DNA of 64,000 nt from a virus: the IMG/VR virus record IMGVR_UViG_3300008266_009201, positions 1 to 64,000 of that record; one strand, 5' to 3'. The position numbers were made by a program, and so were the translations under genes. The notes beneath the pieces were generated by a model. The model searched no databases and was not told the DNA's origin. It worked only from the letters and a program-made list of their open reading frames with translations. Positions 25,772 to 46,131 of the stretch are shown piece after piece; positions within the stretch are counted from its first letter, which is position 1, and each line of letters starts with the position of its first letter.

Positions 25772-26242
25772 ATGTGGATTTTACATTTTCTTCCTGATGC
25801 CTTGATCTTATGGTTTTGTAACATCCTGTTATTAGCGGGCCTTGTGCTTACTGTAGCAGGATTTTTTGCGCATCGTATTCCTCTAGTGTGGCAATATCAG
25901 TTGCCCTTTAAAGTCCTGGGCATTGCACTTTTGGTGCTAGGAGTTTACTTTCGCGGCGGATACGCAGTGGAAGCAGAATGGCGCGAGCGTGTGGCTGAAG
26001 TGGAACAAAAACTAAAGATTGCTGAAGCTGAAAGCGCACGGGAAAATGTAAAGATTGTGGAACGAGTTGTGAAGAAAACTGAATACATCACTCGTAGAGG
26101 TCAAGACATCATACAGTATATTGACAGAGAAATAGTCAAGTACGATGTAAAATTTGCACCTGGTGGACAGTGTGAAATTCCTCGAGAATTCATTACCACT
26201 ATAAATCGTGCAGCGGAGGCACCAAAAAATGAAACTAAATGA
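25772..26242 (+). CDS. membrane protein with coiled coil, probable inner-membrane spanin
   Basis: 156 residues. Two hydrophobic segments (about residues 8-30 and 45-62) are followed by a long charged coiled coil (VAEVEQKLKIAEAESARENV to about residue 125) and a short Cys-containing end. Rz-like spanins have one N-terminal membrane segment and a periplasmic coiled coil; the extra segment is unusual. A lipoprotein of o-spanin type, an endolysin and a holin follow within 6 kb, supporting a lysis role. Confidence 0.6.
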   Translation: MWILHFLPDALILWFCNILLLAGLVLTVAGFFAHRIPLVWQYQLPFKVLGIALLVLGVYFRGGYAVEAEWRERVAEVEQKLKIAEAESARENVKIVERVVKKTEYITRRGQDIIQYIDREIVKYDVKFAPGGQCEIPREFITTINRAAEAPKNETK

Positions 26243-27620
26243 CGTAATACTAGAAGCAGCGTCGCCTGCTCAACAGGCAGCCATTGCTATTGCTAAAAAG
26301 AAAAAGGCCGGCATGGTCAAAGAACAACAGCTTGATGAATTTGCGCCGTTGTTGGCAGCAGGTGCAAGACTGTTCATGGCTGCTGCCCCAAAAATAGCAC
26401 AGGTTCTTGGCCAAGCAGGACAAGCAGGAGCTCGCGGTGCAGGTCAGGCTGCTCGAGCTGGCACAGAAATTGCAGCCAAGAATGCTGGAAAAATTGGCAT
26501 GGGTGCTGGTGCTTACGAAATTGGATCTTCTGTGGCAGACATTGCCAAAGATATTGCTGCCAAGGTGGGCACGGCCATTGACGAGAAAACATTGCTTGAC
26601 CTGTCTGCTTTGGCTTTTAAATATGCCATCCCTGCTGGCATTGTGTTGGCTGTGTTGTATGGCGGCAAAAAAGCCATAGACTCCTTGTTTGACGAGCCCA
26701 AAGATCAGCAAGGTGTGGCGGAAGGCAAAGCTGATTACAACTTTGATATTGAGGATCTAAAACGTCTTGAACAAATCAGAGACTTGTCCACGTTGAAAGC
26801 ACAGGCACTGGCATTGATCAGCAAGCCCAGTGCCAAGCCAATGAAACCAGAAAAAGTTGAATGGTTTAAAAATGCCCTGGAAAGAATGAACAGCCCTTTA
26901 AAAGTAATCAAACTCATGTATGATTTGTTGCTGAGTGGCGAAGGTAATGCTGTAGTTGGTTCTAGATCGTCAATGAATCCCAACAGTTATCGTCAGCGAT
27001 TTAGTGAGCAAGGTGTAGCGGAAGACTACAATGGCGAGTATGACGACGAAGCAGGCATGGCCGACAACAACTTAGAAACGCTACAACGTGCTGTAGAAGG
27101 TATTGACGATCTAATTCAATCAGGTGATAACTTGCCTGAATGGTGTCAAGAAAAGATTGCTGTGGCCAAGTCAATGCTGGTTGCTGTGTGGGACTATATG
27201 TATTCAGAGGAAGCGTCAGACGAAGTGGATCCCGAAGTGGATGAAATGTTTGAAGCCATGCAAGAGTTGGTAGCAGAAATGGCTGTGAAAAATCGTGTGA
27301 GCGAAGATCTAGTGTGGGAACAGTTTGAAGCCATGCCGGACAATGTGCTGTATGAAACAGCCGCCTGGCGACGTAAAGAAGGCAAGAGCAAAAAAGGCGG
27401 ATTAAACGCCAAAGGTGTGGCATCATATCGTAGAGAAAATCCTGGATCAAAATTGCAAATGGCCGTGACCACCAAGCCTTCAAAACTAAAGAAAGGCTCT
27501 AAGGCAGCAAAAAGACGCAAATCATTCTGCGCCAGAATGTCAGGCGTTAAAGGCCCAATGAAAAAACCCAACGGCAAACCCACACGCAAGGCTCTAGCAT
27601 TGAGAAAATGGAACTGCTGA
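26229..27620 (+). CDS. putative capsid-targeted polyprotein with GVAE cleavage-like sites
   Basis: 463 residues from ATG 26229, which has a GGAGG ribosome site; an earlier in-frame ATG lacks one. The N-terminus MKLNDVILEAASPAQQ resembles T4 capsid-targeting leaders, with ILE|A fitting the prohead-protease rule. Residues 30-150 are Ala/Gly-rich with a hydrophobic helix (YAIPAGIVLAVLYGG). QGVAEG (160-166) and EQGVAED (260-266) divide the protein into three parts. The C-terminal 85 residues are strongly basic, with SKKGGLNAKGVASYRRENPG and SFCARMSG, a type I recall from marine T4-like phages. Probable internal head protein; function unknown. Confidence 0.7.
   Translation: MKLNDVILEAASPAQQAAIAIAKKKKAGMVKEQQLDEFAPLLAAGARLFMAAAPKIAQVLGQAGQAGARGAGQAARAGTEIAAKNAGKIGMGAGAYEIGSSVADIAKDIAAKVGTAIDEKTLLDLSALAFKYAIPAGIVLAVLYGGKKAIDSLFDEPKDQQGVAEGKADYNFDIEDLKRLEQIRDLSTLKAQALALISKPSAKPMKPEKVEWFKNALERMNSPLKVIKLMYDLLLSGEGNAVVGSRSSMNPNSYRQRFSEQGVAEDYNGEYDDEAGMADNNLETLQRAVEGIDDLIQSGDNLPEWCQEKIAVAKSMLVAVWDYMYSEEASDEVDPEVDEMFEAMQELVAEMAVKNRVSEDLVWEQFEAMPDNVLYETAAWRRKEGKSKKGGLNAKGVASYRRENPGSKLQMAVTTKPSKLKKGSKAAKRRKSFCARMSGVKGPMKKPNGKPTRKALALRKWNC
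26709..27026 (+). repeat. two copies of the CAAGGTGTRGCGGAAG motif
   Basis: Copies at 26709-26726 and 27009-27026 share the 16-mer CAAGGTGTRGCGGAAG exactly, encoding QGVAE followed by G or D. They lie exactly 300 bases apart, dividing the protein into modules. The same 16-mer recurs at 44303 and 45137. Confidence 0.8.
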
Positions 27621-27621
27621 C

Positions 27622-27930
27622 ATGAAAAATCAACAGGATCAACAACTTGTTTCCAGTTTGATTATATTTGCAATTGTTGTGATGCTGATGTTGGCCATCA
27701 CTGGGTGCAGCACTGTGGTGCCTGTTGTGGCCAAGTTTCCAGATGCACCCGGACGATCAGCCATGGTGCCGTGCCCACAACTGGAACAGATTCCAGGTGA
27801 AGCTCGACTCAGTGACGTTGGTCGAACTGTGGTACAAAACTACACCACTTACTATGCTTGTGCTGTGAAAGCAGATGCTTGGATTGAGTGGTACTCAGTA
27901 CAGAAAAAAATATTTGAAGGTGCAAAATGA
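27622..27930 (+). CDS. lipoprotein, probable outer-membrane spanin
   Basis: 102 residues. A signal sequence of hydrophobic residues 10-28 ends in the lipobox ITGC (Cys29), so the mature protein should be lipidated. The mature part contains PCPQLEQIPGEARLSDVGRT and ends in the helix YYACAVKADAWIEWYSVQKK. Its location directly before the endolysin (4-base overlap) fits an o-spanin, the partner of the coiled-coil protein at 25772. Confidence 0.65.
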   Translation: MKNQQDQQLVSSLIIFAIVVMLMLAITGCSTVVPVVAKFPDAPGRSAMVPCPQLEQIPGEARLSDVGRTVVQNYTTYYACAVKADAWIEWYSVQKKIFEGAK

Positions 27931-28541
27931 GCATACTATCCGTACAACAACTAAAACAAATGGTAAAGAATCCCCACATTGATCACTGGCACGAAGCCCT
28001 AGATCAACTGTTAGATGACTACGGCATTGACACACCCCTACGTGTGGCACATTTTGTTGCACAATGCGCTCATGAGTCAGGAAATTTTATTTTCATCAAA
28101 GAAAATCTCAACTACAAAGCCGCAAGCCTACAAAAAGTTTTCCCCAAGTATTTCCCCACAGCTGAATTGGCTGCACAGTATGCCAACCGGCCTGAACGTA
28201 TTGCCAACAGAGTCTATGCCAATAGAATGGGCAACGGCGACGAAGCATCAGGCGATGGCTGGCGCTATTGTGGTCGTGGGCTAATACAGTTGACAGGCAA
28301 GGACAACTACACATTCTTTGCAGGCAGCCTGAGTATTTCTGAAGCCGAAGCCGCAGAATATCTAGCCACTTTTGAAGGTGCCGCACAGTCAGCTTGTTGG
28401 TACTGGGAACAGAACAATCTAAATAGATTTGCAGATGCCAATGACGCAAAAGGTCTAACACGGGCCATCAACGGTGGCTACATTGGTCTTGAGGATCGCA
28501 TCAAACACACTGAACATGCACTGCATGTGTTGGGAGCCTAA
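27927..28541 (+). CDS. GH19 chitinase-like endolysin
   Basis: 204 residues. The GH19-type lysozyme motifs are HFVAQCAHESGNFIFIKENL, with the catalytic-type glutamate in HES, then a YANRMGNGDEASGDGWRY region and the signature CGRGLIQLTGKDNY. GH19 phage lysins cut peptidoglycan glycan strands. No signal peptide is visible, so it should need the holin encoded at 32063. ATGA overlap with the spanin-like gene. Confidence 0.9.
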   Translation: MSILSVQQLKQMVKNPHIDHWHEALDQLLDDYGIDTPLRVAHFVAQCAHESGNFIFIKENLNYKAASLQKVFPKYFPTAELAAQYANRPERIANRVYANRMGNGDEASGDGWRYCGRGLIQLTGKDNYTFFAGSLSISEAEAAEYLATFEGAAQSACWYWEQNNLNRFADANDAKGLTRAINGGYIGLEDRIKHTEHALHVLGA

Positions 28542-28703
28542 ATGCCATTAGCAATTGGTGGGGGCATATCCATTGGTGGGGGCATAAGTGTTGCAGTTGC
28601 ACCGCCCACACCTTCGGCCACATCCATTACCACAGAGTCGGATGATCCCATCACAACAGAATTGGCAAACTCGCCGCCCAGCGACGAGATTATTACAGAA
28701 TAA
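28542..28703 (+). CDS. 53-residue protein with IGGGI start module
   Basis: ATG follows the endolysin stop directly. It begins MPLAIGGGISIGGGISVAVA and ends in an acidic Ser/Thr/Pro stretch. The start module of two IGxG steps is also found at the N-termini of the proteins at 31010 and 31736, which suggests a common virion-attachment or fibre-tip element. Function otherwise unknown. Confidence 0.6.
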   Translation: MPLAIGGGISIGGGISVAVAPPTPSATSITTESDDPITTELANSPPSDEIITE

Positions 28704-28712
28704 GGAAAGCAC

Positions 28713-29459
28713 ATGCCCATTAAAATATCACAACTAACTTCACTAGCCGCAATGACTGATGCAGCCATTGTGCCAGTGGTCAGCAGTGGAGTTACCTATC
28801 AAATTTCAGGCAGCAACTTGAAAACATATTTTTCTTCTGTGACCGGCAACATCACAGGCGGCAACTTGAACACAGGCGGCTTGGTTACAGCCACAGGCAA
28901 CGTGAACACAGCATCAGGCGTGTTGGCCACTGGCAATGTGCGTGGTGGCAACGTAACGTCTGTGGCCCTGGTACAAGGCGCCACAGTGAGTGCCACAGGT
29001 AATGTACAAGCTGGCAACCTCAACACCACAGGATTGATTTCTGCTACAGGAACCATCACATCTGGCGCTAATATCATTGGTAGTTTCTTTGTGGGCAATG
29101 GATCACAGTTGACTGGAATTTCAGGTGGAGTGGCATCACTCAGCGGCAACTTGTCCGGCAACCTAGTAGGTAATGGATTTGGAGCAGATGCATTTAGTTT
29201 TGTCAGCGTTACTGGCAACGTAACAGCCGCAAACTTTATAGGTGGCGGCGCAGGCACACCCACACTGAGTTCAGCCACAAACTTGGATCTGTCAGCTGTG
29301 TCAGCAGTTAGAGTAGTTGGCGGTGGCACGTTCCGACTGCCTAGTTTAACCACAGCACAAATTGCCAACACAATTGCAGCCAATGGTGACATGATTTACA
29401 ACTCATCTACTAACAAGTTTCAGGGTTACGAAAATGGTGCCTGGGCCAATTTAATTTAA
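28713..29459 (+). CDS. short tail fibre with ATGN repeats
   Basis: 248 residues. An N-terminal attachment part MPIKISQLTSLAAMTDAAIV is followed by ATGNVRGGN / TGGLVTATGN repeats, a FFVGNGSQLTG segment as in the fibre at 5492, and a C-terminal knob (GDMIYNSSTNKFQGYENGAW). An SD (AAGGA) precedes the ATG. It is a shorter relative of the fibres at 5492 and 13176, perhaps an alternative receptor-binding fibre. Confidence 0.82.
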   Translation: MPIKISQLTSLAAMTDAAIVPVVSSGVTYQISGSNLKTYFSSVTGNITGGNLNTGGLVTATGNVNTASGVLATGNVRGGNVTSVALVQGATVSATGNVQAGNLNTTGLISATGTITSGANIIGSFFVGNGSQLTGISGGVASLSGNLSGNLVGNGFGADAFSFVSVTGNVTAANFIGGGAGTPTLSSATNLDLSAVSAVRVVGGGTFRLPSLTTAQIANTIAANGDMIYNSSTNKFQGYENGAWANLI

Positions 29460-29460
29460 T

Positions 29461-31008
29461 ATGACCACATATAACGTAGCATTAAATGAAGGTGTTGATT
29501 ATGATGCTTTCTGGCAGGAAATAGAAACTGACGGATCAGGCAGCGTCTACGTGCCCCAACGCGGGGTGGCAATTGTGAATGAACGTCCCACCAGTCTACG
29601 CCAGTGTTGGTATGAGTTAACTGATGACGAAGCAGACAAACTGCGTCAAGACCCCAGAGTGTATTGTGTGGAGATACCGCCTGAGCAACGAACAGATATT
29701 GAAATCCACAACAATGCCTCACAAACTGGCTTGTATTACAAAAGTCCCGGCACCAATCCTGCCAACAATCTTGGAATCAATTGGGGGTTGTTTAGACTGA
29801 ATTCAACCACAATGAACACTCCTGGTTCATCAGGTACATTGACCTACAACTATCCCTTGGACGGCACTGGAGTAGACTTTGTGGTACAAGACTCAGGACT
29901 GCAAGTTGACCATCCTGAGTTTACGGATGCAGCTGGCGTGACTAGAGTACAACAAATTGACTGGTACACAGCGTCAGGTATTGCAGGTACCATGCCTGCT
30001 AATTTCTACACCGACTATGACGGACATGGCACACACTGTTGTGGCATTGCCGCGGGCAAAACATACGGTCGTGCTAAAAATGCTAGAATTTACTGTATGA
30101 CTGTGAGTGGACTCAACGTGGCACCCACCAATGGTATATCAACCACAGATGTGTTTGACTGCATCAAAGGGTGGCACAACAACAAAACTGTGGACCCCGC
30201 CACAGGATACAAACGACCCACAGTTGTAAACATGAGCTGGAGTTACATCAACACGTTCACCAGTATCAATGGTGGCATTTATCGTGGAACGCCCTGGAGT
30301 GGGTCTGCCAAACAAGCTACATTTGGTATGATTGGCAGTGCATCCAATCGCTTTGGTGTAAGAGTAGACAGTGTGGATGTGGATGTGGCCGAATTGCTGG
30401 CAGCAGGTGTGGTGTTAGTGGGCGCAGCCGGCAATTACTATCAAACTTTAGATGTGCCAGGCGGCCCTGATTACGATAACTTTTTTTATCAAACAAGCAC
30501 TCCTAGGTATTACATGCGCGGCGGATCACCGGCCAGTGCTGATGGAGTGATCTGTGTGGGCAACGTCAGCACTGGATATGACAATCCTGAACACAAAAGT
30601 GGCTCTAGTGAATCTGGGCCCAGGGTGGATATTTATGCACCTGGCACAAACATTGTGAGTACCACCAGTACCAGCAATGCATTTGGTGCTACCACACCAT
30701 ATCCATTCAATGCCAGCTACTTGATAATGAGTATTTCAGGCACGTCAATGGCCAGTCCCAATGTCGCTGGCCTGGCTGCTCAACTGCTACAAGTTTACCC
30801 CACAGCTACCCCAGCACAGATACGAGCCAAGGTCATTGCTATGAGCACTCCCAACATGCTGTATGACACAGGATCGCAAACTGACTACAGCAATGAAGAA
30901 ATTCTGCACGGTGGACCCAATAGATTTGCCTATCAGGCATTTAACACAACCAGCGGCGGCAACATAAGCGGCCCAGTGTCAGTAAGTAACACAAGCATGA
31001 GGACATGA
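29461..31008 (+). CDS. subtilisin-like serine protease (S8)
   Basis: 515 residues. The S8 catalytic triad is complete: Asp in VDFVVQDSGLQVDHPEF, His in DYDGHGTHCCGIAAG and Ser in ISGTSMASPNVAGLAA. The usual oxyanion Asn region is VLVGAAGNYY. The N-terminal 85 residues replace a classical propeptide and there is no signal peptide. The C-terminus ends in a short Ser/Gly-rich tail. It lies between fibre genes, so a virion-borne protease acting on host surface proteins or in fibre maturation is likely. Confidence 0.9.
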   Translation: MTTYNVALNEGVDYDAFWQEIETDGSGSVYVPQRGVAIVNERPTSLRQCWYELTDDEADKLRQDPRVYCVEIPPEQRTDIEIHNNASQTGLYYKSPGTNPANNLGINWGLFRLNSTTMNTPGSSGTLTYNYPLDGTGVDFVVQDSGLQVDHPEFTDAAGVTRVQQIDWYTASGIAGTMPANFYTDYDGHGTHCCGIAAGKTYGRAKNARIYCMTVSGLNVAPTNGISTTDVFDCIKGWHNNKTVDPATGYKRPTVVNMSWSYINTFTSINGGIYRGTPWSGSAKQATFGMIGSASNRFGVRVDSVDVDVAELLAAGVVLVGAAGNYYQTLDVPGGPDYDNFFYQTSTPRYYMRGGSPASADGVICVGNVSTGYDNPEHKSGSSESGPRVDIYAPGTNIVSTTSTSNAFGATTPYPFNASYLIMSISGTSMASPNVAGLAAQLLQVYPTATPAQIRAKVIAMSTPNMLYDTGSQTDYSNEEILHGGPNRFAYQAFNTTSGGNISGPVSVSNTSMRT

Positions 31009-31009
31009 T

Positions 31010-31732: not shown

Positions 31733-31735
31733 TAT

Positions 31736-32050: not shown

Positions 32051-32062
32051 TAAGGAAACAAC

Positions 32063-32955: not shown

Positions 32956-33732
32956 ATGACCGATCACTATGCAACACTAGGTGTTGCTCGAACTGCCACA
33001 CAAGACGAAATCAAACGAGCTTTCCGTCGGCTGGCCAGCCAGCATCATCCGGACAAGGGCGGCGATACAGCCAAGTTCCAAGAGATACAAGCAGCCTACG
33101 ACACTCTAGGCGACGAAGCCAAACGAGCTGAGTACAACAATCCACGCCCACAGTTTGGGGGATTCCCCAACGGCACACACTTCAACATGAATGATATTTT
33201 TTCAAGCATGTTTGGACAGAACTTTGCGCAACAGCAAGCTCGTAGAGGTCATGTGAGAATGAGTCTCTGGATCAGTCTTGCTGACGTTGCAACTGGTGGA
33301 CAGCGCACAGTGACCATTGGTACACAGCAAGGTGCCCAAGCAGTTGAAATTGAAGTACCGCGTGGCATTGACGACGGAGACAATGTGCAATACCAAGGCC
33401 TGGGCCCAGGTGGCGCAGATCTAGTGGTGCAGTATCGAGTGCAACCAGATCCAAACTGGGAACGGCAAGGACTAAACTTGATTACCAATCGCAAAATCAA
33501 TGTGTTTGATTTGATATTGGGTGCGGACATTCGAGTTAGAGATTTGCTAGGCAATGAATTGTCTATGACTGTGCCGTCGGGCACTCAACCGGGCACACTG
33601 CTAAGACTCAAAGGTCGTGGTCTGCCCAATCGTCAAGGTCAGCAGGGCGATGCGTTTGTTCGCATATCAACCGAATTGCCCATACACATTGCCCCAGAAA
33701 TTCGTGAAGCTATCCAAAAGCATCACAAATAA
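32956..33732 (+). CDS. J-domain co-chaperone (CbpA/DnaJ-like, no zinc finger)
   Basis: 258 residues. J-domain residues 1-70 contain the HPD motif at 31-33 (HHPDKGGDTAKF), which stimulates DnaK ATPase. A Gly/Phe-type linker follows (PQFGGFPNGTHFNMNDIF), then two C-terminal DnaJ substrate-binding modules (TGGQRTVTIG; LNLITNRKINVFDLILGADI). The CxxCxGxG zinc region is absent, as in type II DnaJ. It would recruit host DnaK for folding or disassembly. It has its own strong early promoter. Confidence 0.92.
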   Translation: MTDHYATLGVARTATQDEIKRAFRRLASQHHPDKGGDTAKFQEIQAAYDTLGDEAKRAEYNNPRPQFGGFPNGTHFNMNDIFSSMFGQNFAQQQARRGHVRMSLWISLADVATGGQRTVTIGTQQGAQAVEIEVPRGIDDGDNVQYQGLGPGGADLVVQYRVQPDPNWERQGLNLITNRKINVFDLILGADIRVRDLLGNELSMTVPSGTQPGTLLRLKGRGLPNRQGQQGDAFVRISTELPIHIAPEIREAIQKHHK

Positions 33733-33744
33733 ATATTTTGAGTA

Positions 33745-33773
33745 TTGCATTACTCACAACAATGTGCTACAAT
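33745..33773 (+). promoter_or_regulatory. sigma70-like promoter (TTGCAT-17-TACAAT)
   Basis: -35 at 33745-33750 and -10 at 33768-33773 with a 17-base spacer, 22 bases before the ClpA-like ATG. A TAAATA box in the preceding stop region may add late expression. Confidence 0.6.
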
Positions 33774-33795
33774 ACACAAGGTAACAACTTAACTC

Positions 33796-36078
33796 ATGCC
33801 CATGTCACAACATTCTGAACTCGAAAGTATCGTAGAAGACGCCATTGAATTGGCTCGTTCCAAAAGTCACGAATACGTGACCACAGAACATTTGCTGTTG
33901 GCCCTGATACGGCACCAGCCATTTAGAAAAACTCTGGACAAATTTGGCACCGACTCTGGCATGCTGGATCAAGAAGTAGACAGCTACCTCAACAGCTTGA
34001 TTTCTATTGTGAGTAAAAGCGCAGATATACAACCTCGAAAGACCACTGCACTGGAACGCATTTTCAATCGTGCCAATGTACAGGTCATGTTTACTGGACG
34101 CAGAACACTCACTGTGATTGATGTGTATCTTTCAATCATGGCAGAAACCAACAGTCATGCACACTACTTCTTGTTGAAGTATGGTGTGAAGAAACAGGAG
34201 TTTGTGGATCATTGGCAAAAGACCTACACTCACTCAGACGCCAAGCTGAGTCAAGCACAGGCCACAGAAATACTCACTGAGTACTGTACAGATCTCACAG
34301 GTGCGGCTCGCGGCAATCGTCTGGAGCCCATGATTGGGCGAGCCACAGAAGTTCAAGAAATGGTCACCACACTGGCACGCCGTTTCAAAGCCAACGTGCT
34401 GATGGTAGGTGATCCTGGTGTGGGCAAAACACACATTGTGGAAGGACTAGCACAGGAAATTGTGGCTGGTCGTGTGCCAGAGTTTCTTAAGGATCACGAA
34501 GTGTGGAGCCTGGAAATTGGGTCATTGTTGGCAGGATCAAAGTATCGCGGTGAGTTTGAAGAAAAATTCAAAGCAGTAATAGCTGCTCTTGAAACCAAGA
34601 AGAAATGTATCTTGTTCATTGACGAAGCACACACCATGCGTGGCGCAGGTTCAGGCTCTAACAGTTCACTTGACTTTGCTAACATGCTGAAACCTGCTAT
34701 TACCAAAGGCAACTTGAAAGTTGTGGCGTCGACCACCTGGGAAGAATACTATGAATCATTTGAGAAAGATCGCGCACTCATGCGCAGATTCTACCGCTTG
34801 TCAATTGATGAACCAGATACTGCAACCACGGAGCAGATTCTTATTGGTCTATCTCCCCGGCTCGAAACGTTTCATAATGTGCTGATTGAAACTGAAGCAA
34901 TGACTGCGGCTGTGGAACTGGCCAATCGTTACATACACGATCGTAAGAATCCTGACAAATCAATTGACTTGATTGATGCAGCCTGTGCTAGAGAGCGTGT
35001 GAAAGATCTGGGCACAGTAGTAGTTACCAAGGCCATGATTGAAGAACAGTTGACTCGTGTGACTGGTGTGCCCACAGACAAACTGCAAAACGAACGTTCA
35101 GCTAAGATTGTGGATCTTGAAGGCAACATCAAGCAGAAATTGTACGGACAAGATTCAGCAGTTGATTCAGTGCTGGAACGTGTGTACATCAACTTTGCTG
35201 GCATTGCCAATGACAAAAAGCCCATGGCGAGTTTCTTGTTCTTGGGCCCAACAGGCACAGGTAAAACAGAACTAGCACGACTGTTGAGTGACAATTTGGA
35301 TATGAAACTGCTGAAATATGACATGAGTGAATTCCAAGAGCGTCATTCAGTCAGCAGCCTTATTGGTGCGCCTCCGGGTTATGTGGGATTTGAAGATGGC
35401 AATGTAGGTGGCGGCAAACTGATCTCTGACATCAGCAAGAATCCCTTCGCAGTAATATTGTTTGATGAGATTGAAAAGGCGCACCCTGATGTTACCAACA
35501 TCTTGTTGCAGATGCTGGATGAAGGTGTTATTACCAGTTCGAACGGCAAGAAAGCCAACTGCAAGAATACCATCATTATCATGACTTCAAACTTAGGAGC
35601 ACGGGACAGTGAAGCAAACAACATTGGCTTTGGCAGCTTTGAAAAGACTGGTGAGGACGACCGAGCTCTCAAAGAGTTTTTCAAGCCTGAACTACGCAAC
35701 AGAATCGACCAAATTGTTAAATTCTCCAAGCTGGATACTTTGGCAATCAAGAAAGTTGTGGTCAAGTTTGTGGATGAACTCAAAACGAGTTTGCTTGCAA
35801 AAGGTATACGTCTCAACTTATCCGAAGGCGCAGTTGACCTGCTTGCTGACAAGGGCTATGATTCGAAGCTGGGTGCGCGACCACTCTCGAGGAAGATTGA
35901 TGAACTGATTCGTGTGCCGTTGAGCAAGAAGATCCTGTTTGATCGCTTGCGTGATTGTACTATCACTGCGGATGTTGTGGCGGACAAAATTGTGTTTGAT
36001 GTTCAAGCGGACGCACCTGTGGAAGTGATTGCAAGTGTAAATGTTGATGGAATTATAGTGGTGGACAATGAGAAGTGA
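33796..36078 (+). CDS. ClpA-like AAA+ unfoldase
   Basis: 760 residues, the same size as bacterial ClpA. An N-terminal Clp repeat domain (EYVTTEHLLLALIRHQPF) is followed by AAA+ module 1 with Walker A GDPGVGKTH (205-213) and FIDEAH, then module 2 with GPTGTGKTE (484-492) and ILFDEIEKAHPD. The ClpP-docking type loop is present as IGF (610-612) in NNIGFGSFEKTG. It could redirect host ClpP or act alone in protein remodelling. ClpB-type middle domain is absent. Confidence 0.92.
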   Translation: MPMSQHSELESIVEDAIELARSKSHEYVTTEHLLLALIRHQPFRKTLDKFGTDSGMLDQEVDSYLNSLISIVSKSADIQPRKTTALERIFNRANVQVMFTGRRTLTVIDVYLSIMAETNSHAHYFLLKYGVKKQEFVDHWQKTYTHSDAKLSQAQATEILTEYCTDLTGAARGNRLEPMIGRATEVQEMVTTLARRFKANVLMVGDPGVGKTHIVEGLAQEIVAGRVPEFLKDHEVWSLEIGSLLAGSKYRGEFEEKFKAVIAALETKKKCILFIDEAHTMRGAGSGSNSSLDFANMLKPAITKGNLKVVASTTWEEYYESFEKDRALMRRFYRLSIDEPDTATTEQILIGLSPRLETFHNVLIETEAMTAAVELANRYIHDRKNPDKSIDLIDAACARERVKDLGTVVVTKAMIEEQLTRVTGVPTDKLQNERSAKIVDLEGNIKQKLYGQDSAVDSVLERVYINFAGIANDKKPMASFLFLGPTGTGKTELARLLSDNLDMKLLKYDMSEFQERHSVSSLIGAPPGYVGFEDGNVGGGKLISDISKNPFAVILFDEIEKAHPDVTNILLQMLDEGVITSSNGKKANCKNTIIIMTSNLGARDSEANNIGFGSFEKTGEDDRALKEFFKPELRNRIDQIVKFSKLDTLAIKKVVVKFVDELKTSLLAKGIRLNLSEGAVDLLADKGYDSKLGARPLSRKIDELIRVPLSKKILFDRLRDCTITADVVADKIVFDVQADAPVEVIASVNVDGIIVVDNEK

Positions 36079-37765: not shown

Positions 37766-38482
37766 ATGAGCACTGTAGTAATCATGCCCGGGGGATTTCA
37801 TCCTTTCCATGCAGGGCACCTAGCACTTTATCAATCCGCACAACGGGCATTCCCTGATGCTGAAGTTTTTGTTGCGGCCACAAACGATACCTCAGCTAGA
37901 CCATTTCCATTTGCAGTAAAAGAAAAGTTGGCCAAGCTGGCTGGAGTAGATGCTGGACATTTTGTGCAGGTCAAATCACCGTTTCGTGCTGAAGAAATTA
38001 CTGCGCAATTTAACCCTGCTACAGACACATTAATTTTTGTGCGTTCTGATAAAGACGCCAACAAACCTCCACAAGCAGGCGGCATAAAGAAAGATGGCAA
38101 TCCTGCATACTTGCAACCACTGATAGGTGCAAAGCGATTAGAGCCATTTGCAAAACATGCCTACATGGCCTACCTACCCACAGTGGAGTTTGGTCCAGGC
38201 ATGACGTCGGCCACAGAGATTCGTGGCGCATGGCCCACACTAAACGAAAAACGCAAAACAGCTCTTGTGATGAGCTTGTATCCAGCAACACAAAAGAATC
38301 CCAAATTGGCTGCTAATGTTGTCAAACTGTTGGACACTGCCATTGGTACTGTGGCTGAGAATCAAGGCTGGGCCGCGACATTTACCAGCGAGAATCAACT
38401 GAGTGTGGGTGGCATGAAGGCAGGCTATCAAGCTAGAGAAAATCAGCCCGTTATTGACTACATGGAAGAGTCTAGGTCGTAA
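37766..38482 (+). CDS. nucleotidyltransferase (HxGH, cytidylyltransferase fold)
   Basis: 238 residues. MPGGFHPFHAGHLALYQSA carries the HxGH site of cytidylyl/NMN-adenylyl transferases, and MTSATEIRGAWP matches the later xSxTxIR motif. The C-terminal 60 residues are an extra part ending QPVIDYMEESRS. It may make an activated nucleotide or NAD precursor; a role in virion decoration is possible. A second domain of this fold is fused to the APS kinase at 24769. Confidence 0.75.
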   Translation: MSTVVIMPGGFHPFHAGHLALYQSAQRAFPDAEVFVAATNDTSARPFPFAVKEKLAKLAGVDAGHFVQVKSPFRAEEITAQFNPATDTLIFVRSDKDANKPPQAGGIKKDGNPAYLQPLIGAKRLEPFAKHAYMAYLPTVEFGPGMTSATEIRGAWPTLNEKRKTALVMSLYPATQKNPKLAANVVKLLDTAIGTVAENQGWAATFTSENQLSVGGMKAGYQARENQPVIDYMEESRS

Positions 38483-39416: not shown

Positions 39417-42400
39417 ATGAACATCAACGAACTGGATTCCTTCAAGCTGAGTGATGCTGTAAAGTTTCACAATCGTCTCAACCCTAAAATCTGGGGCAGG
39501 GACGAGCAATTGTTACCCGAAGTACGCGAAAAGCTGTTGGCCATTGCTGACAATTTTCGCGAATTTCTTGGCGTAGGTGACCTTGACGTCCGTGACATAA
39601 CCATCTCAGGCAGTAATGCTGCCTACAGCTATACCCCATATTCCGACATTGATCTACACCTTGTGGTGGAGTTTCCTGCTGACGACGAAGTTTATCAGGA
39701 ACTGTTCAATGCCAAAAAATACCAATATAACGATGAACACAAGTTGAGCATCGGCGGCGTGCCTGTGGAACTGTATGTGCAAAATGCAGCCGAGTCTCCT
39801 GTGAGTCAAGGTGAGTATTCTATCCCACGTGACGAATGGATTCAAGTGCCACGCAGAAAACGTGCCAGAATTGACGACACCTGTGTGCGAGCCAAGGTCG
39901 AAGATTTGGATGCTAGAATACATTCAGCAATTGAATCTGGCAACGCTGAATCCATGAGCAGACTGTGGGACAAGATCAAGGCCATGCGCCAAAGTGGCTT
40001 GGATGCTCACGGCGAGTTTGGGTGTGAAAACATTGTGTTCAAAATCCTGCGTAACAAAGGTTGCATCAAGGATTTGCGCACAGCTAGAACAGCCGCACAA
40101 GATCACGAGCTGAGTCTACAAGAACGCCGAAAAAAGAAATCCCGAGTGCGTTATGGATTTGGCAGCTATTGGTCTCCTGGATTTGGCTACGGAGGAGAAT
40201 CAGGCGAAGGTGGTGACGGTGGTGGTGGCGAAAGCATGCGCGAAGGCCATCAAGGACAACCCTACAGTTCAGAAGATGGTGTTGCTGCCAGCACACAAAT
40301 GTTCTTGAATGAAGATGACACTGAGAGCATGGTGCAACAGTTTATTCAAGACACTGCTGAACGCTTGGGCATTGAACGCATGCCTGAAATTGTACTACAT
40401 GACAATGACGGATGGAGTGAACAAAATCGTTCATTTGGCATGTACCAACCAGAGCTGCATGTTTTGCATGTGAATCTGCGCGATCGACATGTGATGGATA
40501 TTCTTCGCACTGTGGCACACGAACTGGCACACTGCCGCCAACAGGAATTAGAACAATTGGATCACACATCTGGCAACACAGGCTCTCCTGTGGAGAACGA
40601 AGCAAACGCTGTGGCTGGCATTATCATGCGAGACTTTGCTGATGCACACCCAGAACTGTTTGACCATGAAGACATTCGTGAGTCATCTGGATACATTCCC
40701 ACCTGGGCCGAACGCAACGATCCTCGATTTGAAATGGCACTGAGTGTGGATGTGCATCCAGGACAAACTGGCACAGAAGCCAACAAGATGCGACTGGCCA
40801 CTGATTCGCAAGGCCATCCACAACTGTTGCGAGCAGATGGCAAGGTAAAGTTAGCAGAAAGTCTAGCACAAGAATTTGAACTGTTTGAAGAACAAGACCT
40901 GTTTGAAATAAACATGGGCAGCAAAAATTTGCGCAGGGAAGCTGCCAAAACAGGTGCCATTGCTGGCATGGAATTTGAAATGATTGTGCCTGGTATGGAA
41001 TCCGAAGATCCTGAAATGGAACCAGACTATGATCAGGATGAACGCTGTGTTAGCATTGATGATGCTGTGCGATTCTTTCATGATGGCGACTACAACGGCC
41101 GTAGAGATGTTGAACGCCTGCGTGAAAGAATGCAGGACGATTTCCAGGAATGGCTGGATGAAAAACTTCGCGATGACTGGGGCGGTGAAAGCCAAGATTA
41201 CATTCGTGACTGGCTTCGGAATAATGTAAATGAAGATGAATGGAATCCTAACGAGTTAACTGGTGATGAACGAAACGAAGCATTTGATGAATTTGCAGCC
41301 AATGTAGACGCTGATCCTTCGAGTACTTACTACAATGAAGCCTTTGATGAATGGCGGGAAGAATTCCAAGAAAATTATGACGAAAGCGACTGGTTAGACG
41401 CCACAGACCTTGACAGAATGAGTGAGGTTGAGCAAATGTATGGAATGAATTGGCCCTACTGGACTAGCATGAACAGCGGCGAGATTGACGCAGATCAAGT
41501 GGCTGACGAATTCAGTCAGGCTGTGGGTCGTGAAGTGCGAGTGAACACAAGATATCATCAGTCCGGCGACAGACCTGGACCCAACAATCAATTCTATGTA
41601 GTAGAACCAGACGCCAGTTTGGAAGGCGACAATGACGGCGACGAAGGCTTGGAGTTTGTGAGCCCGCCCATGCCCATAGATGAACTGCTGAAAGATTTAA
41701 ATGCCGTGAAGGCCTGGGCTGGACGCATGGGCGTTTATACCAACAGTTCGACTGGCCTGCACATCAACATATCAGTGCCTGACTACAGTTTAGATCGTTT
41801 GGACTATGTAAAACTGGCCTTGCTGTTGGGCGACGAGTATGTGCTCAAACAATTTGGTCGCAGTTCCAATACCTACACCAAATCAGCACTAGGCAAGGTG
41901 CGTGATCGTGTGCGGTCCAACCCCGAAGACGCACAGCGTTTGCTGGACAAGATGAAAGGTCAAATGGGTGAACTGGCTTCCAAGGCCATCCATTCAGGCA
42001 GCACAGACAAGTACACATCAATCAACACCAAGAGCGGACACATTGAATTCCGTTCGCCGGGTGGTGACTGGCTGGATGACAACTTTGACAAGATTGAAAA
42101 CACTCTGTTGCGTTTCACAGTGGCCATGAGTGCAGCACTTAACCCTGAAGCCTATCGAGAAGAGTATCAAAAGAAACTATACAAACTGTTGACTCAGGAT
42201 CAAAAAGGGTCAGACACAATCCGATACTTTGCTGACTATGTGGCTGGCAAGATTCCCAAGGCTGCCTTGCGTAGTTTTGTCAAGCAAGCACAACTACAAC
42301 GCAAGACGGAGCGTAATAAAACAAGCGGTGAAAAGATGTGGTGGAACGTTTCCAATCCTGGCAATAGTTATGCCAGTGTAGAAGTTGTTGCCACCTCTCG

Positions 42401-43586
42401 AGAAGAAGCCATTGAAAAAGCCTTGGGGGATGATGGCTATCCGTCTTGGGCCAACACACGACAATCTATTGTGGCTGAACCTGTGCGTCCGTATAATTTG
42501 GATGCACAATCTACACAAGACGACGACACAGCTAGTGCCTTTACTGCACCGCCAGGTTCTCAAGGTGGTGGCCGCCCCAATGACCCCAACGGTCGCTATG
42601 CCATTGTGCTACGCTCGGATCCAGGCCTGTATGGCAGTTTTACTGGCCCAGCACCTGACTATCAGTTTAGATTTAACATGGGCAATCCAGCGGAACAGGC
42701 ACAAGGCAGATATGTTCTCCAAGCCTGGGCTGCTAGAAACAATGTGGTTGCTGCTGACTACATGGTGGTGGATACTGAACAATGGGATCGGCCTGCAGAT
42801 GCAGCATCGGGTGGTATCATTGACATTGAACCAGATATAGAGGTGGTCTACCCTGGAAGCACAGCAGCCTTGGCACAACAGCGAGCCACGCCAGGCACAT
42901 TCTCTGGTGCATGGAAGGTGTTGGTCAATGGTGAAGAAGTTCATAGATTTTCAGGCGTGGGCAACAATCAAGGCGATGCTAACCGTGTAGCGGCTCAATG
43001 GTTGCGAAACAATGGTCGGGGAGTGTCAGGCGAAGGCTTTGAAGTTGTGCCAATCATGACAGAAGGTGTAGCCGAAGGCAAGGATCGCTACGGAAACTTT
43101 GATCCTCCTGGTCCTGAAAGCCGACCCACAATGCCAGCGGGCACTGTGCGAGTGGATGTGTCAGACATGTATGACTGGTACAAGTTGGGCAAGAACATTG
43201 CTAACTTAGACAGAGATAACACTGACGATTTTGGCAAAGGACCACCCAGTACTATTGTGAGTTTTGGCGACGAAGATCTTGAACATGAATACATCAAGCA
43301 GTTGGAAAAACTAGGGTTAACCACCACTGACATTGATCCTGTAGATCCCAATCAACCTGCTGGCATCAAGCGTCAAAAAACTGATCCCACATACAACGTA
43401 GGTGAAAACTTTGCTGACGGTCGGAATCCCCAAGACAAAGGCGATTCAAAGCGACACGGCGTGCCCACCAAAGCATCAGTAAGCACCCTGCGTAAAGTGG
43501 CCAAACAAGGCGGTCGCAAAGGACAATTGGCACACTGGATGGCCAACATGAAGGCTGGACGGGCTCGAGCCAAACGCAATAAATAA
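39417..43586 (+). CDS. 1389-residue nucleotidyltransferase-metallopeptidase-amidoligase protein
   Basis: Domains in order. Residues about 20-160: nucleotidyltransferase, GSNAAYSYTPYSDIDLHLVV (65-84) with the paired aspartates. About 245-275: glycine linker. About 300-440: zinc-metallopeptidase-like, HELAH at 368-372 and a downstream EAN motif. About 510-960: amidoligase-like (GS/ATP-grasp-related COOH-NH2 ligase), with GMEFE (517-521), GLEFVSPP (744-751), TGLHINIS around His782 and HIEFRSPGG (875-883). About 1000-1215: two or three small beta modules (WWNVSNPGNSYASVEVVATS; GAWKVLVNGEEVHRF). TEGVAEG (1215-1221) then separates a basic 168-residue C-terminus. Probably an internal head polyprotein with enzymatic cargo. 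Confidence 0.8.
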   Translation: MNINELDSFKLSDAVKFHNRLNPKIWGRDEQLLPEVREKLLAIADNFREFLGVGDLDVRDITISGSNAAYSYTPYSDIDLHLVVEFPADDEVYQELFNAKKYQYNDEHKLSIGGVPVELYVQNAAESPVSQGEYSIPRDEWIQVPRRKRARIDDTCVRAKVEDLDARIHSAIESGNAESMSRLWDKIKAMRQSGLDAHGEFGCENIVFKILRNKGCIKDLRTARTAAQDHELSLQERRKKKSRVRYGFGSYWSPGFGYGGESGEGGDGGGGESMREGHQGQPYSSEDGVAASTQMFLNEDDTESMVQQFIQDTAERLGIERMPEIVLHDNDGWSEQNRSFGMYQPELHVLHVNLRDRHVMDILRTVAHELAHCRQQELEQLDHTSGNTGSPVENEANAVAGIIMRDFADAHPELFDHEDIRESSGYIPTWAERNDPRFEMALSVDVHPGQTGTEANKMRLATDSQGHPQLLRADGKVKLAESLAQEFELFEEQDLFEINMGSKNLRREAAKTGAIAGMEFEMIVPGMESEDPEMEPDYDQDERCVSIDDAVRFFHDGDYNGRRDVERLRERMQDDFQEWLDEKLRDDWGGESQDYIRDWLRNNVNEDEWNPNELTGDERNEAFDEFAANVDADPSSTYYNEAFDEWREEFQENYDESDWLDATDLDRMSEVEQMYGMNWPYWTSMNSGEIDADQVADEFSQAVGREVRVNTRYHQSGDRPGPNNQFYVVEPDASLEGDNDGDEGLEFVSPPMPIDELLKDLNAVKAWAGRMGVYTNSSTGLHINISVPDYSLDRLDYVKLALLLGDEYVLKQFGRSSNTYTKSALGKVRDRVRSNPEDAQRLLDKMKGQMGELASKAIHSGSTDKYTSINTKSGHIEFRSPGGDWLDDNFDKIENTLLRFTVAMSAALNPEAYREEYQKKLYKLLTQDQKGSDTIRYFADYVAGKIPKAALRSFVKQAQLQRKTERNKTSGEKMWWNVSNPGNSYASVEVVATSREEAIEKALGDDGYPSWANTRQSIVAEPVRPYNLDAQSTQDDDTASAFTAPPGSQGGGRPNDPNGRYAIVLRSDPGLYGSFTGPAPDYQFRFNMGNPAEQAQGRYVLQAWAARNNVVAADYMVVDTEQWDRPADAASGGIIDIEPDIEVVYPGSTAALAQQRATPGTFSGAWKVLVNGEEVHRFSGVGNNQGDANRVAAQWLRNNGRGVSGEGFEVVPIMTEGVAEGKDRYGNFDPPGPESRPTMPAGTVRVDVSDMYDWYKLGKNIANLDRDNTDDFGKGPPSTIVSFGDEDLEHEYIKQLEKLGLTTTDIDPVDPNQPAGIKRQKTDPTYNVGENFADGRNPQDKGDSKRHGVPTKASVSTLRKVAKQGGRKGQLAHWMANMKAGRARAKRNK
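43062..43079 (+). repeat. variant copy of the GVAEG-coding motif
   Basis: GAAGGTGTAGCCGAAGGC, encoding EGVAEG. It differs from the 16-mer at two bases but preserves the peptide, and it marks the boundary of the basic C-terminal domain. Confidence 0.65.
43580..43585 (+). promoter_or_regulatory. late promoter box close to ATG
   Basis: TAAATA at the stop codon of the giant gene ends 7 bases before ATG 43593; predicted leader about 2 bases. No SD. Confidence 0.55.
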
Positions 43587-43592
43587 CCCATC

Positions 43593-43946
43593 ATGAGATA
43601 TAAAGAAATTCTTGAAGCCTGCTGGACTGGTTATCGCCAAGCAGGCATGAAAAACAAAGGTGGTCGTCAGGTGCCCAATTGTGTGCCTGTGAGCGAAACC
43701 GAGTTGGAAGAAAATCTCCGTGATTGGTTCAAAGACAAGTGGGTACGCTTTGGGCCCGACGGCAAGATCCGTGGTGATTGTGCTAGAGGCAGTTCAAAAG
43801 AAGGCAAGCCCAAGTGTTTGCCGCAAGCCAAAGCACATGCCCTGGGCAAAAAAGGTCGTGCGTCAGCAGCCGCAAGAAAACGCAGACAAGATCCCAACCC
43901 CAACCGCACAGGAAAGGCCATCAACGTGGCCACTAAAAAGAAATGA
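43593..43946 (+). CDS. basic head-type protein with DUF5872-like C-terminus
   Basis: 117 residues. MRYKEILEACWTGYRQ is a capsid-leader-type start (ILE|A). AGMKNKGGRQVPNCVP is a short Cys motif I recall from marine T4-like phages. WFKDKWVRFGPDGKIRGDCA and PKCLPQAKAHALGKKGRASA resemble DUF5872, a basic domain of unknown function. The C-terminus is very basic (ARKRRQDPNPNRTGKA), suiting DNA contact inside the head. It overlaps the next gene by 4 bases. Confidence 0.68.
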   Translation: MRYKEILEACWTGYRQAGMKNKGGRQVPNCVPVSETELEENLRDWFKDKWVRFGPDGKIRGDCARGSSKEGKPKCLPQAKAHALGKKGRASAAARKRRQDPNPNRTGKAINVATKKK

Positions 43947-45778
43947 TTATAGACGACTTATTTGAAGCCTCACAGTCATGCCCACACTGTGGTGGTCCCA
44001 TGTTCAGTGAAATGCTGATGATGGAAAAGAAAGACGCCTGCTACTACAAAGTAAAAGCGTCAGCAAAAGTATGGCCATCAGCCTATGCATCTGGACGCTT
44101 GGTTCAGTGTCGCAAAAAAGGCGCTGGCAATTATGGCAACAAGTCTGAAGGTGTGATGGAAATGGACAAATCACAAACACCTCCAGGGCGTGATGGTAGT
44201 AACGATGAAGGCGGCAAAAAAGAATACACTGCTAAAGCAACCACTGCTAAAAAAGTAGCCAAGGATGCTGAAAAGATTCTAAACAAAGAGTTAAACAAGA
44301 AGCAAGGTGTGGCGGAAGCAACTGGCGATCAAAAGTTTGACTCAATGATGGGTCAGATCACAGGTGGTGCTACTGCTAGGCAAAGTGTAGATAGTTTGAA
44401 TAAGTCTCTCACTGCAAGAACAGGCAGCGACCCAGAAACAGCATTGGCCAAATGGGGCCAGGAATTTATAAATTGGCTTGAAAAAATTTGCCGCAACTTT
44501 GAAAGGCAAGGTGTAGATAGGTTTAATAAATTAGAAAAAGTAGGTAATCTTGACGACGGTGGCGAAACTATGGCGCACTGGTTGATTGAGGTCGCCAAAC
44601 AATCCAATACCTCAGGCATTACACAGGCTGACATACAGGAATTTTCTAGCGAGTTTAATACCCACGGAATGTGGGCTTGGCATCAGTTTCCTATAGCTTG
44701 GGGTCTAAAAGAATGGCAAGACTATAAAGATCAATGGACTGGCCCTGATGGTTACATAGCCAATCTAGGACAAGGCATGGCGGAAGGCTCGGAGTCAGAT
44801 GCTTACGGTAACACTGGTGAAAAGCATGAATGTGGTTCTTGCGATGGCACTGGAATAGATACACACGATGATGAGTGCCCAGAATGCGGTGGCAAAGGCT
44901 GGGTGAGAAATAAGGAAGCATTGAAGAAGAAAGGCATGGCGGAAGAGTATGAACTAGCAGGTGTTGGCGTAGCATACGAACTGGGTCGTCGAGCATACAA
45001 ACAAGGTATGACCATCAGAGACAATCCATATAGTGCCACAAGAGAAGCCCGTAAAAATGACGAATGGGCCAAAGGATTAGAACGCGGCAAACACGATGCA
45101 AATGATGCCAGACATTTCCGCAGTAGTGTAAGAGAACAAGGTGTAGCGGAAGGTGATCTTGACGAAGGCTGGAAAGAAAAATTAGGTGGCGCGGCATTGG
45201 CAGGTGCAATGGCACTGGGCGCAGGTGGTGCCAATGCTAGAGTTACTCCTGATGGCCAAGGCGGTTTCACTGGCGGATTCAAGCCAAGTGCAACAATGAC
45301 ATCACCTGCTGATAATAAACCGGCTGCAGAAGCACCAAAAGGCTTTAGCAAAGAATATTTACAAAGTGTAATAGACGGCAAGCACCCAAGACCAATGGTT
45401 AGTGTTGAAAAAGCAAAAGAACTATTAAAGAACATGCAAGAAGGTGACTTGAATGAAAAGTCAACCAGCCAAGCACAATTCCGCACCATGGCAGCAGCCG
45501 CACACAATCCTGAATTTGCAAAAAAAGTTGGCATCAGCCAAGACGTTGCTCAAGAGTTCCACGGTGCTGATCGCAAGCAGGACTATGCAGACTTGCCTAA
45601 AAAGGCTGACGAAAGCAAATCAACTCCCAAAGAAAAAGAAGCCGACTACGGTGATGATTATCAAGACATGATTGCTAGAGTAAAGAAACTGGCTGGCTTG
45701 GGCCCACTTAAAACTGTGTATGATCCCCAAAAGCGTGTGTATCGCAACATGCCCACAGCGGTGCAACCTAAAAAATGA
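43943..45778 (+). CDS. multi-domain polyprotein with five GVAE/GMAE-type sites
   Basis: 611 residues. Leader MIIDDLFEASQSC fits LFE|A cleavage. Predicted segments: 9-125, Cys-rich start CPHCGGPMFSEML and KVWPSAYASGRLVQCRKKG; QGVAEA (121-126); 126-281, a helical domain with SDPETALAKWGQEFINWLEK; QGMAEG (277-282); 282-334, DnaJ-type zinc site CGSCDGTGIDTHDDECPECG; GMAEE (331-335); 335-403, RMF/CrpP-like GRRAYKQGMTIRDNPYS with WAKGLERGKHD; EQGVAEG (398-404); 404-611, a hydrophobic Gly/Ala helix, then AQFRTMAAAAHNPEFAKK and a basic end. Sites coincide with domain borders. Probably an internal head polyprotein. Confidence 0.72.
   Translation: MIIDDLFEASQSCPHCGGPMFSEMLMMEKKDACYYKVKASAKVWPSAYASGRLVQCRKKGAGNYGNKSEGVMEMDKSQTPPGRDGSNDEGGKKEYTAKATTAKKVAKDAEKILNKELNKKQGVAEATGDQKFDSMMGQITGGATARQSVDSLNKSLTARTGSDPETALAKWGQEFINWLEKICRNFERQGVDRFNKLEKVGNLDDGGETMAHWLIEVAKQSNTSGITQADIQEFSSEFNTHGMWAWHQFPIAWGLKEWQDYKDQWTGPDGYIANLGQGMAEGSESDAYGNTGEKHECGSCDGTGIDTHDDECPECGGKGWVRNKEALKKKGMAEEYELAGVGVAYELGRRAYKQGMTIRDNPYSATREARKNDEWAKGLERGKHDANDARHFRSSVREQGVAEGDLDEGWKEKLGGAALAGAMALGAGGANARVTPDGQGGFTGGFKPSATMTSPADNKPAAEAPKGFSKEYLQSVIDGKHPRPMVSVEKAKELLKNMQEGDLNEKSTSQAQFRTMAAAAHNPEFAKKVGISQDVAQEFHGADRKQDYADLPKKADESKSTPKEKEADYGDDYQDMIARVKKLAGLGPLKTVYDPQKRVYRNMPTAVQPKK
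44303..45154 (+). repeat. four copies of the GVAE/GMAE-coding motif
   Basis: Copies at 44303-44320 and 45137-45154 match CAAGGTGTRGCGGAAG exactly. Those at 44771-44788 and 44930-44947 read CAAGGCATGGCGGAAG and AAAGGCATGGCGGAAG. GCG for alanine and GAA for glutamate are kept in all four although alanine codons vary elsewhere. Confidence 0.8.
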
Positions 45779-46131
45779 GAGCATACGAGTTTGCACAGTT
45801 GAAAGAAGGCGCTGTAGAAGATTTGGAAAAAGATCTAGATGATCCCAAGAGCTACAGCGCAATTGATCACATGATGCAAACCATTGCTCGTGACTACGGC
45901 ATTACTGGCAAACAACTGCACGACGAGTTTGTGAAAAAACACGGCACAATTCCAGACAAGTGGACCCGCGAGCAACTGCGTGAATTAAGTTTTCTAGGTT
46001 CACAATGCACCAAAGACTGTTCTGGTCACAGAGCAGGATATGCCTGGAGTCAAAAGCGCGGTGGCCGACAACCTGCAAGTTGGAGCGACAGTTTCAATCG
46101 CGGTGCCGCACTGTTTGCAGCAGGAAAATAA
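45775..46131 (+). CDS. small head-type protein with CTKDCSGH domain
   Basis: 118 residues. MRAYEFAQLKEGAVED is a leader-like start with LKE|G. A helical part (IARDYGITGKQLHDEFVKKH) is followed by LGSQCTKDCSGHRAGYAWSQ and the end WSDSFNRGAALFAAGK, a Cys/Gly domain I recall from other aquatic phage proteins but cannot name. It overlaps the preceding polyprotein gene by 4 bases and belongs to the same late operon. Confidence 0.66.
   Translation: MRAYEFAQLKEGAVEDLEKDLDDPKSYSAIDHMMQTIARDYGITGKQLHDEFVKKHGTIPDKWTREQLRELSFLGSQCTKDCSGHRAGYAWSQKRGGRQPASWSDSFNRGAALFAAGK

Follow-up and report, generated by a model that had tools for sequence, protein, structure and literature searches.

Why should a virus carry the same short protein word seven times in three of its genes? 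The window examined here is a stretch of 64,000 nucleotides (positions 1 to 64,000 of the 98,440-bp IMG/VR record IMGVR_UViG_3300008266_009201), in which a preliminary description had pointed to copies of (Q/E/K)G(V/M)AE followed by G, A, D or E, and had read them as sites where a T4-type prohead protease cuts polyproteins into capsid-packaged modules. The analyses presented below suggest that these genes probably encode polyproteins of a T4-like jumbo phage, in which cargo cassettes are joined by an adaptor acting both as a DNA joint and as a head-protease site. Cleavage and packaging are partly supported, based on a protease and a gp23-type capsid gene in the same phage, N-termini resembling capsid-targeting sequences (CTS), the interchange of propeptides and GVAE, selection at positions P1 and P3 of the site, internal twin-arginine (Tat) signals and the detection of homologues in virions by mass spectrometry (MS). 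The conservation of the linker as DNA and its role as a module joint had been missed by the earlier description.

Seven linkers in three multi-module genes

When the window was searched in all six frames for [QEK]G[VM]AE[GADE], seven words were found, at 26709, 27009, 43062, 44303, 44771, 44930 and 45137, with two in the open reading frame (ORF) ending at 27620, one in 39417-43586, four in 43943-45778 and no further copy outside these three genes. The copies reported earlier are thus borne out, and residue shuffling of the 68 window proteins yielded a mean of 0.04 copies and a maximum of one (300 shuffles). At the DNA level the seven sites are nearly alike, consisting of CAAGGTGTGGCGGAAGGC and close variants. 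The word xG[VMIL]AE is absent from ORFs in the other 34 kb of the same record.

Two sets of loci were compared with the window: at least 119 IMG/VR stretches (L003-L121) selected by a DNA pattern that fixed CAA, GGT and GAA and allowed any third base in the Val and Ala codons, and at least 160 loci (L137-L296) selected by module homology among the matches listed. All uncultured records are fragments. Up to seven GVAE copies per protein occur among the pattern-selected loci, and in the first 80 of these, 89 of 97 matches encode QGVAEG within the longest open frame. The shortness of the motif, together with 26 occurrences of the 18-mer in bacterial and archaeal GTDB genomes, could suggest chance or an ordinary flexible linker devoid of function. 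These cellular occurrences themselves look like chance (contigs of 53-74% GC, nine of 26 in the longest frame, a second in-frame GVAE word in one of 26). With seven copies against 0.04 expected, the difference in frame usage between viral and cellular matches, and the codon bias described below, this explanation is extremely improbable and was rejected.

The GVAE word was present in 55 of 80 listed loci retrieved by the zinc-ribbon module and in 16 of 80 retrieved by DUF6321. No exact linker copy was found in nine cultured phages (T4, PA5oct, Vibrio 2.275.O, Phosso, XaC1, S-CREM2, S-SCSM1, S-CAM8 and P-SSM2), seven of which have one or two matches each with one mismatch. Judging from these sequences, the predicted polyprotein family is widespread in uncultured T4-like jumbo phages. 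Its features in the window are as follows (↓, predicted cut).

26229-27620, + strand: polyprotein A, 463 aa from ATG 26229, with DUF6321 at its C-terminus
26229-26255, + strand: CTS-like N-terminus of polyprotein A, MKLNDVILE↓A (by sequence, compared with T4 MKTYQEFIAE↓A)
26709-26726, + strand: linker 1, QGVAE↓G, predicted cut after 26723 (motif scan)
27009-27026, + strand: linker 2, QGVAE↓D, predicted cut after 27023 (motif scan)
27345-27617, + strand: basic DUF6321 module with VLYE↓T in front, predicted cut after 27356 (Pfam, homologues)
39417-43586, + strand: polyprotein B, 1389 aa (Pfam- and PHROG-type matches, part by eye)
41487-42071, + strand: Amidoligase_2 domain, residues 691-885 of polyprotein B (Pfam E 3.3e-8)
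43062-43079, + strand: linker 3, EGVAE↓G, predicted cut after 43076 (motif scan)
43593-43946, + strand: short two-module protein without GVAE, both modules matching S-CREM2 gp160
43943-45778, + strand: polyprotein C, 611 aa, N-terminus MIIDDLFE↓A (by sequence)
43967-44302, + strand: zinc-ribbon/KDACYYKVKASAKVWPSAYASGRL basic module of polyprotein C, 78% identity over 41 aa to S-CREM2 gp160
44303-44320, + strand: linker 4, QGVAE↓A, predicted cut after 44317 (motif scan)
44771-44788, + strand: linker 5, QGMAE↓G, predicted cut after 44785, then a CxxC zinc module (motif scan, Pfam)
44930-44947, + strand: linker 6, KGMAE↓E, predicted cut after 44944, then a weakly RMF-like module (E 0.0053, below cut-off)
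45137-45154, + strand: linker 7, QGVAE↓G, predicted cut after 45151, then a Sec-signal-like stretch ending ANA (motif scan)
45431-45457, + strand: junction NMQE↓GDLNE, where the relative L145 has an extra module of about 220 aa between GMAE linkers (comparison)
45775-46131, + strand: single-module protein, MRAYEFAQLKE↓G, without GVAE (by sequence)

For polyprotein A, the program-made ORF list gives a GTG start at 26208, and the ATG at 26229 is likelier; the module after its linker 2 recurs behind N-terminal peptides in L113, L045 and L080. Polyprotein B comprises a nucleotidyltransferase-like module, a metallopeptidase-like HELAH stretch (by eye), Amidoligase_2 and a C-terminal basic module, and its residues 11-235 align with S-CREM2 gp156. 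The two adjoining genes, 43593-43946 (laid out as MRYKEILE↓A, a CWTGY..PNCV module, LEE↓N and a basic DWF module) and 45775-46131, also encode modules of this family but lack the GVAE word. The domain labels are weak in part: DUF6321 and Amidoligase_2 pass the Pfam cut-off, whereas RMF, DnaJ zinc (E 0.00055) and NTP_transf_2 (E 0.0046) fall below it. An AlphaFold2 model of polyprotein C (mean predicted local distance difference test, pLDDT, 49.7) places the linkers in segments below 50, and says little because most residues (379 of 611) are also below that value.

The linker as a DNA word and module joint

The linker DNA word, AAGGTGTGGCGGAAG, is near-invariant over 15 nt in one reading frame, and the sequence flanking it is unconserved. 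Among 122 copies from a sample not selected by motif, GGT was used in 99, GTG in 77 and GCG in 86 (70%), whereas these codons make up 42%, 31% and 9% of the background Gly, Val and Ala codons, respectively; one such codon analysis left out pattern-selected copies. Over all sets, the 15 nt were identical in 193 of 344 copies (45 of 67 in contigs below 38% GC, 64 of 137 in those above 44% GC). The CTS provided an internal control, with codons near background except for AGA (98 of 141 second codons). As causes of the codon bias, a rare-codon pause would account for GCG while leaving GGT and GAA, both common codons, unexplained, and an internal start site was dropped in view of the unconserved flanks.

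DNA alignments between polyprotein genes end in a linker in 299 of 606 cases (32 at random) and start in one in 104 of 553 (24 at random); ends at the linker are partly expected, since both sequences share it. In-frame gain or loss of modules is illustrated by L202, which equals L200 plus two modules between YINRQQGVAEG and KGDFAQ, by similar differences between L016 and L055 and between L006 and L017, and by polyprotein C and L145, which differ by about 220 aa between MQEGMAEG and EQGMAED. These four cases were picked from 34 candidate insertion pairs, of which 19 had a linker in or at the inserted segment, a count without random control.

Such constancy of the DNA word would be expected if the linker served as a recombination joint, if recombination had spread it from a recent source, or if its copies underwent gene conversion. 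The linker might be viewed as mainly a DNA element (a recombination joint, an endonuclease target or a gene-conversion word), with QGVAEG incidental and the proteins remaining intact and multidomain. Synonymous positions conserved far beyond codon use and the excess of alignments ending in the linker favor this explanation, which is nevertheless unlikely in light of the constraints found at the protein level.

GVAE as a putative prohead protease site

The same module can be found behind GVAE↓ in one protein and behind a CTS in another, aligned at the Glu, as in QGVAE↓EWSQKYKSSIN, MKLSEIIIE↓GWSEKYKRSID and MRAKEFISE↓KWSKKYKSSIN. At 321 non-redundant junctions devoid of GVAE, Glu occupies P1 in 159 (50%, background 6%) and L, I, V, F or M occupies P3 in 52% (background 25%), while Ala at P2 (14%) and Gly at P4 (12%) are nearer background (8% and 7%). 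This set excluded matches beginning past residue 2 and junctions with at least 10 of 16 identical residues; a first estimate had used 159 junctions. Linker copies with up to two mismatches were in frame in 368 cases, in another frame in four and antisense in eight. The P1 codon is altered in 24 of the 368, with Glu retained in 22 of them, where a random single change alters Glu in 8 of 9 cases; the P3 codon is altered in 71, of which 69 encode V, M, I or L, and residues vary at P4 (26 of 46 altered codons non-synonymous) and P2 (22 of 72). The retention of P1 Glu and a hydrophobic P3 amid this variation, the single frame, the equivalence of CTS and GVAE junctions, and hydrophobic-x-Glu (hxE) kept at junctions lacking the DNA word all argue against a role confined mainly to DNA. 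The conserved positions are those of the published T4 protease rule, L/I-X-E (PMC9026906), with V and M apparently accepted too.

Further evidence comes from six Tat signals inside polyproteins, 3-7 residues past an hxE site, which in two cases is GVAE itself. Tat signals normally work at the protein N-terminus. A Tat-like pattern gave 10 matches in 2930 proteins (11 in 2978 after whole-protein deduplication), and an hxE lies within eight residues upstream in six of the eight internal matches, against 13% at random positions in the same proteins; the remaining two (L058, L250) look unlike Tat signals. Two more Tat-like signals follow a CTS in GH19-domain proteins and one stands at its own N-terminus. 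Because a Tat signal may still function behind a CTS, it is the internal cases that carry the weight. Among eight proteins scanned, Pfam TAT_signal was above cut-off only in L027 and L033. In the products of L027:3858-4493 and L055:6261-6890, a GH19 (endolysin/chitinase-like) domain occurs together with a Tat-like signal and an N-terminus resembling a CTS, TAT_signal passing only in the former. Sec-type signals as a rule after linkers were rejected (4 of 346, random mean 1.5, maximum 4, not significant).

Neither an S77 protease nor a gp23 gene was found in the 98,440-bp record. A larger record, G026 (364,404 bp), shares with it an identical stretch of 19,001 bp corresponding to window 40805-59805, and contains five exact matches to AAGGTGTNGCNGAAG spaced identically to those of the window; with one mismatch there is one more in G026, also present in the window at 9982, and the two GGCATGGCGGAA variants of the window are outside the AAGGTGTNGCNGAAG pattern. 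The protease presupposed by the preliminary description was located in G026, where an S77 gp21-type gene occupies 262536-263162 (E 1.0e-115 to the S77 protease alignment A1) within a T4-like head cluster of portal, gp67-like (MLLQEFF...), gp68-like, S77 protease, scaffold and gp23-type capsid proteins. Except for the protease, these genes were named by position and by resemblance to four records with both PF07068 and PF03420 matches. Among cultured phages, the capsid protein is closest to those of jumbo phages, PA5oct and Vibrio phage 2.275.O among them (65-66% identity). Upstream of the conserved capsid core, this group reads LKE↓N, LAE↓N, LLE↓N or LAE↓S, and four cultured jumbo phages read LVE↓N, LME↓S, LME↓T and LNE↓S at the same position. 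A clearly different cut rule in the capsid protein would have spoken against a T4-type cut at GVAE; the presumed LxE↓N/S/T site, placed by eye, fits an LxE↓ cut and is compatible with the GVAE reading. A protease was found in 4 of 22, 4 of 7 (two being cyanophages) and 6 of 22 records of overlapping sets; the capsid gene is present in the same four of 22 records.

The N-termini point in the same direction. Targeting peptides of the T4 type span some 10-20 residues up to an L/I-x-E cut. T4 IPII and IPIII start with MKTYQEFIAE↓A, and polyproteins and their single-module neighbors with MRAQEFIVE, MKPSDFLTE, MKLSEIIIE and similar peptides. A tight CTS pattern matched 32 of 1130 proteins (mean 0.23 after shuffling) and 80 of 1476 (mean 0.28). 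The window N-termini MKLNDVILE↓A, MRYKEILE↓A, MIIDDLFE↓A and MRAYEFAQLKE↓G are looser variants, that is, putative targeting peptides of L/I-x-E type. A looser pattern, far less specific, matched 29 of the 89 proteins with at least two GVAE words, 19 of the 96 with a single word and 219 of the 2099 that have none, the last group taking in CTS-bearing single-module genes. Runs of small genes starting MRAxEF(I/V)xE beside polyproteins in both locus sets look like batteries of single-module capsid cargo.

Homologues of the modules have been detected in cyanophage particles. In S-CREM2 virions, MS identified ORF160 (seven unique peptides, 13.1% coverage; PMC10665884, Table 3), ORF137 (four, 4.1%), ORF156 (six, 15.2%), the cytidylyltransferase ORF154 (three, 11.2%) and ORF136 (eight, 24.1%) (PMC10665884). 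The gp160 protein matches both modules of 43593-43946 and the N-terminal module of polyprotein C, DUF6321 ends gp137, and gp154 and gp136 start with MKNFSSFLTE↓A and MQTFSMFFSE↓D. The DUF6321 protein gp029 of S-SCSM1 is annotated as a virion protein, a label presumably reflecting the 45 proteins detected by MS, and the same basic modules are strung together in S-CAM8 AGN33936 and P-SSM2 PSSM2_123. Window 37766-38482 is cytidylyltransferase-like (CTP_transf_like), of the same Pfam family as gp154, to which it has no tblastn match at 1e-5. Alternatively, another protease, from host or phage, might cut GVAE outside the capsid, with the modules acting in the producing cell rather than as cargo: a ClpB/ClpA-like ATPase annotated as an ATP-dependent protease is encoded in the window, and the link between S77 and GVAE is predicted from sequence. 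T4-like CTS at the N-termini and homologues in virions make this highly unlikely.

Several observations weigh against cleavage and packaging by the head protease. For this phage itself, neither a cleavage product nor a virion protein has been observed; MS coverage of the homologues in cyanophage virions is low, at 4-15%, and some non-structural proteins may, according to the authors, have co-purified (PMC10665884, PMC9602691). As none of the nine cultured phages has the exact linker, the virion data bear on modules connected through junctions of another kind. The linker P3 is mostly V or M, in contrast to L/I in the T4 rule, and the T4 cut column aligned to a gap at the capsid site, itself placed by eye. 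Many linker-bearing fragments are without protease and capsid genes. Polyprotein B has no clear CTS, and the tight CTS pattern matches none of 61 window proteins; with none of 47 in the remainder of the record and none of 60 in a T4 stretch including IPI-III, it marks a subclass. Lastly, in 15 of the 34 insertion pairs the inserted segment neither contains nor borders on a linker, which indicates that exchange also takes other routes.

Other genes of the window include 52316-53041, with many homologues in linker-bearing loci, none carrying GVAE, and 53031-54575 (start TTTINE↓QQLDE), with no homologue in the locus set. A J-domain-like protein followed by the ClpA/ClpB-like ATPase (PHROG ATP-dependent protease) occupies 32956-36078. 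A radical SAM protein is predicted at 18462-19619 by PHROG match, with 21708-22622 and 50336-51439 similar by eye, and 20852-21622 is PhoH-like by eye only.

Known systems and a possible mechanism

A close parallel is offered by T4 IPI, IPII, IPIII and Alt, which share an N-terminal peptide ending in hxE, an S77 protease of the same phage and variable cargo (PMC9026906, PMC9958956); T4 internal proteins are cut by gp21 at the CTS and then injected (same sources). They are single-module proteins, in contrast to the chained modules, repeated internal sites and conserved DNA linker found here, and profile searches of the window proteins matched no T4 internal-protein family. By analogy, the system would work like T4 internal proteins, yet with many modules chained in one precursor. 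In the ejection proteins of phiKZ and SPN3US, a gp21-related protease likewise cuts past x-x-Glu at several sites per propeptide (PMC5694885, PMC10052503), but 13 of 14 reported sites remove N-terminal propeptides, with the motif AXE and no chained modules (PMC10052503). Instead of long propeptides ending in S/A-x-E, the junctions described here have mostly V, L or I at P3 and are internal.

Polyvalent proteins are also mosaic, multidomain phage products thought to be packaged and delivered with DNA (PMC5512222), and polyprotein B, with its nucleotidyltransferase-like, amidoligase and other domains, shares their combination of several unrelated domains. Their release is ascribed to embedded peptidases (PMC5512222), whereas the present sites suit cleavage in trans by the head protease, with a linker conserved as DNA; the HELAH stretch of polyprotein B, seen by eye, has no Pfam peptidase match. 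The cyanophage gp113/gp114-like chains near gp15-gp17 (S-CAM8, P-SSM2, S-SCSM1) and S-CREM2 gp160/gp137 share the small basic modules found here and have hxE junctions and virion-detected homologues, but lack the GVAE linker DNA, have fewer modules and are annotated as hypothetical or virion proteins. Domain mosaicism is shared with phage protein-fragment shuffling (PMC10684548), in the text of which the terms linker, prohead and internal virion are absent. Integron-like gene cassettes, with folded recombination sites and a tyrosine integrase, are an analogy only, the linker here being about 15 nt with unconserved flanks. In the open-licence PMC papers searched, QGVAEG and DUF6321 do not occur, and no description of the linker polyprotein family was found, judging from titles and the starts of abstracts.

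Cleavage, packaging, release, delivery and export in this phage are what we infer from sequence. A short CTS, of an N-terminal class established in T4, would draw the precursor into the prohead core, where the gp21-type protease would cut after hxE and so free the modules, its sites being the CTS, the GVAE↓ linkers and the decayed hxE↓ junctions. The freed proteins would remain in the virion, as supported for homologues, and may enter the next host with the DNA, some being exported, as T4 internal proteins and the internal Tat signals suggest. Comparison of loci shows in-frame gain, loss and swapping of modules at the near-invariant 15-nt word. Since freed modules need not fit their neighbors, the linker could serve as a universal adaptor for cargo shuffling. 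Whether this amounts to a dedicated cassette system is a more tentative matter, with the odds leaning slightly against it: a 15-18 nt, one-frame adaptor across jumbo phages of differing base composition would be both the joint for effector modules and an in-capsid protease site, any module could be plugged in, and some freed Tat modules would be injected and exported by the new host.

The hxE↓ sites and the GVAE linker DNA may be used as readable punctuation, by which the capsid-packaged proteins of many uncultured T4-like phages, including families without an assigned function such as DUF6321, could be listed from sequence. If true, these genes would exemplify, in a phage, polyproteins that the head protease cleaves in trans, and would offer a way for injected proteins to be exchanged in frame, and the set of phage-injected proteins and its evolution would become testable in cultured relatives.

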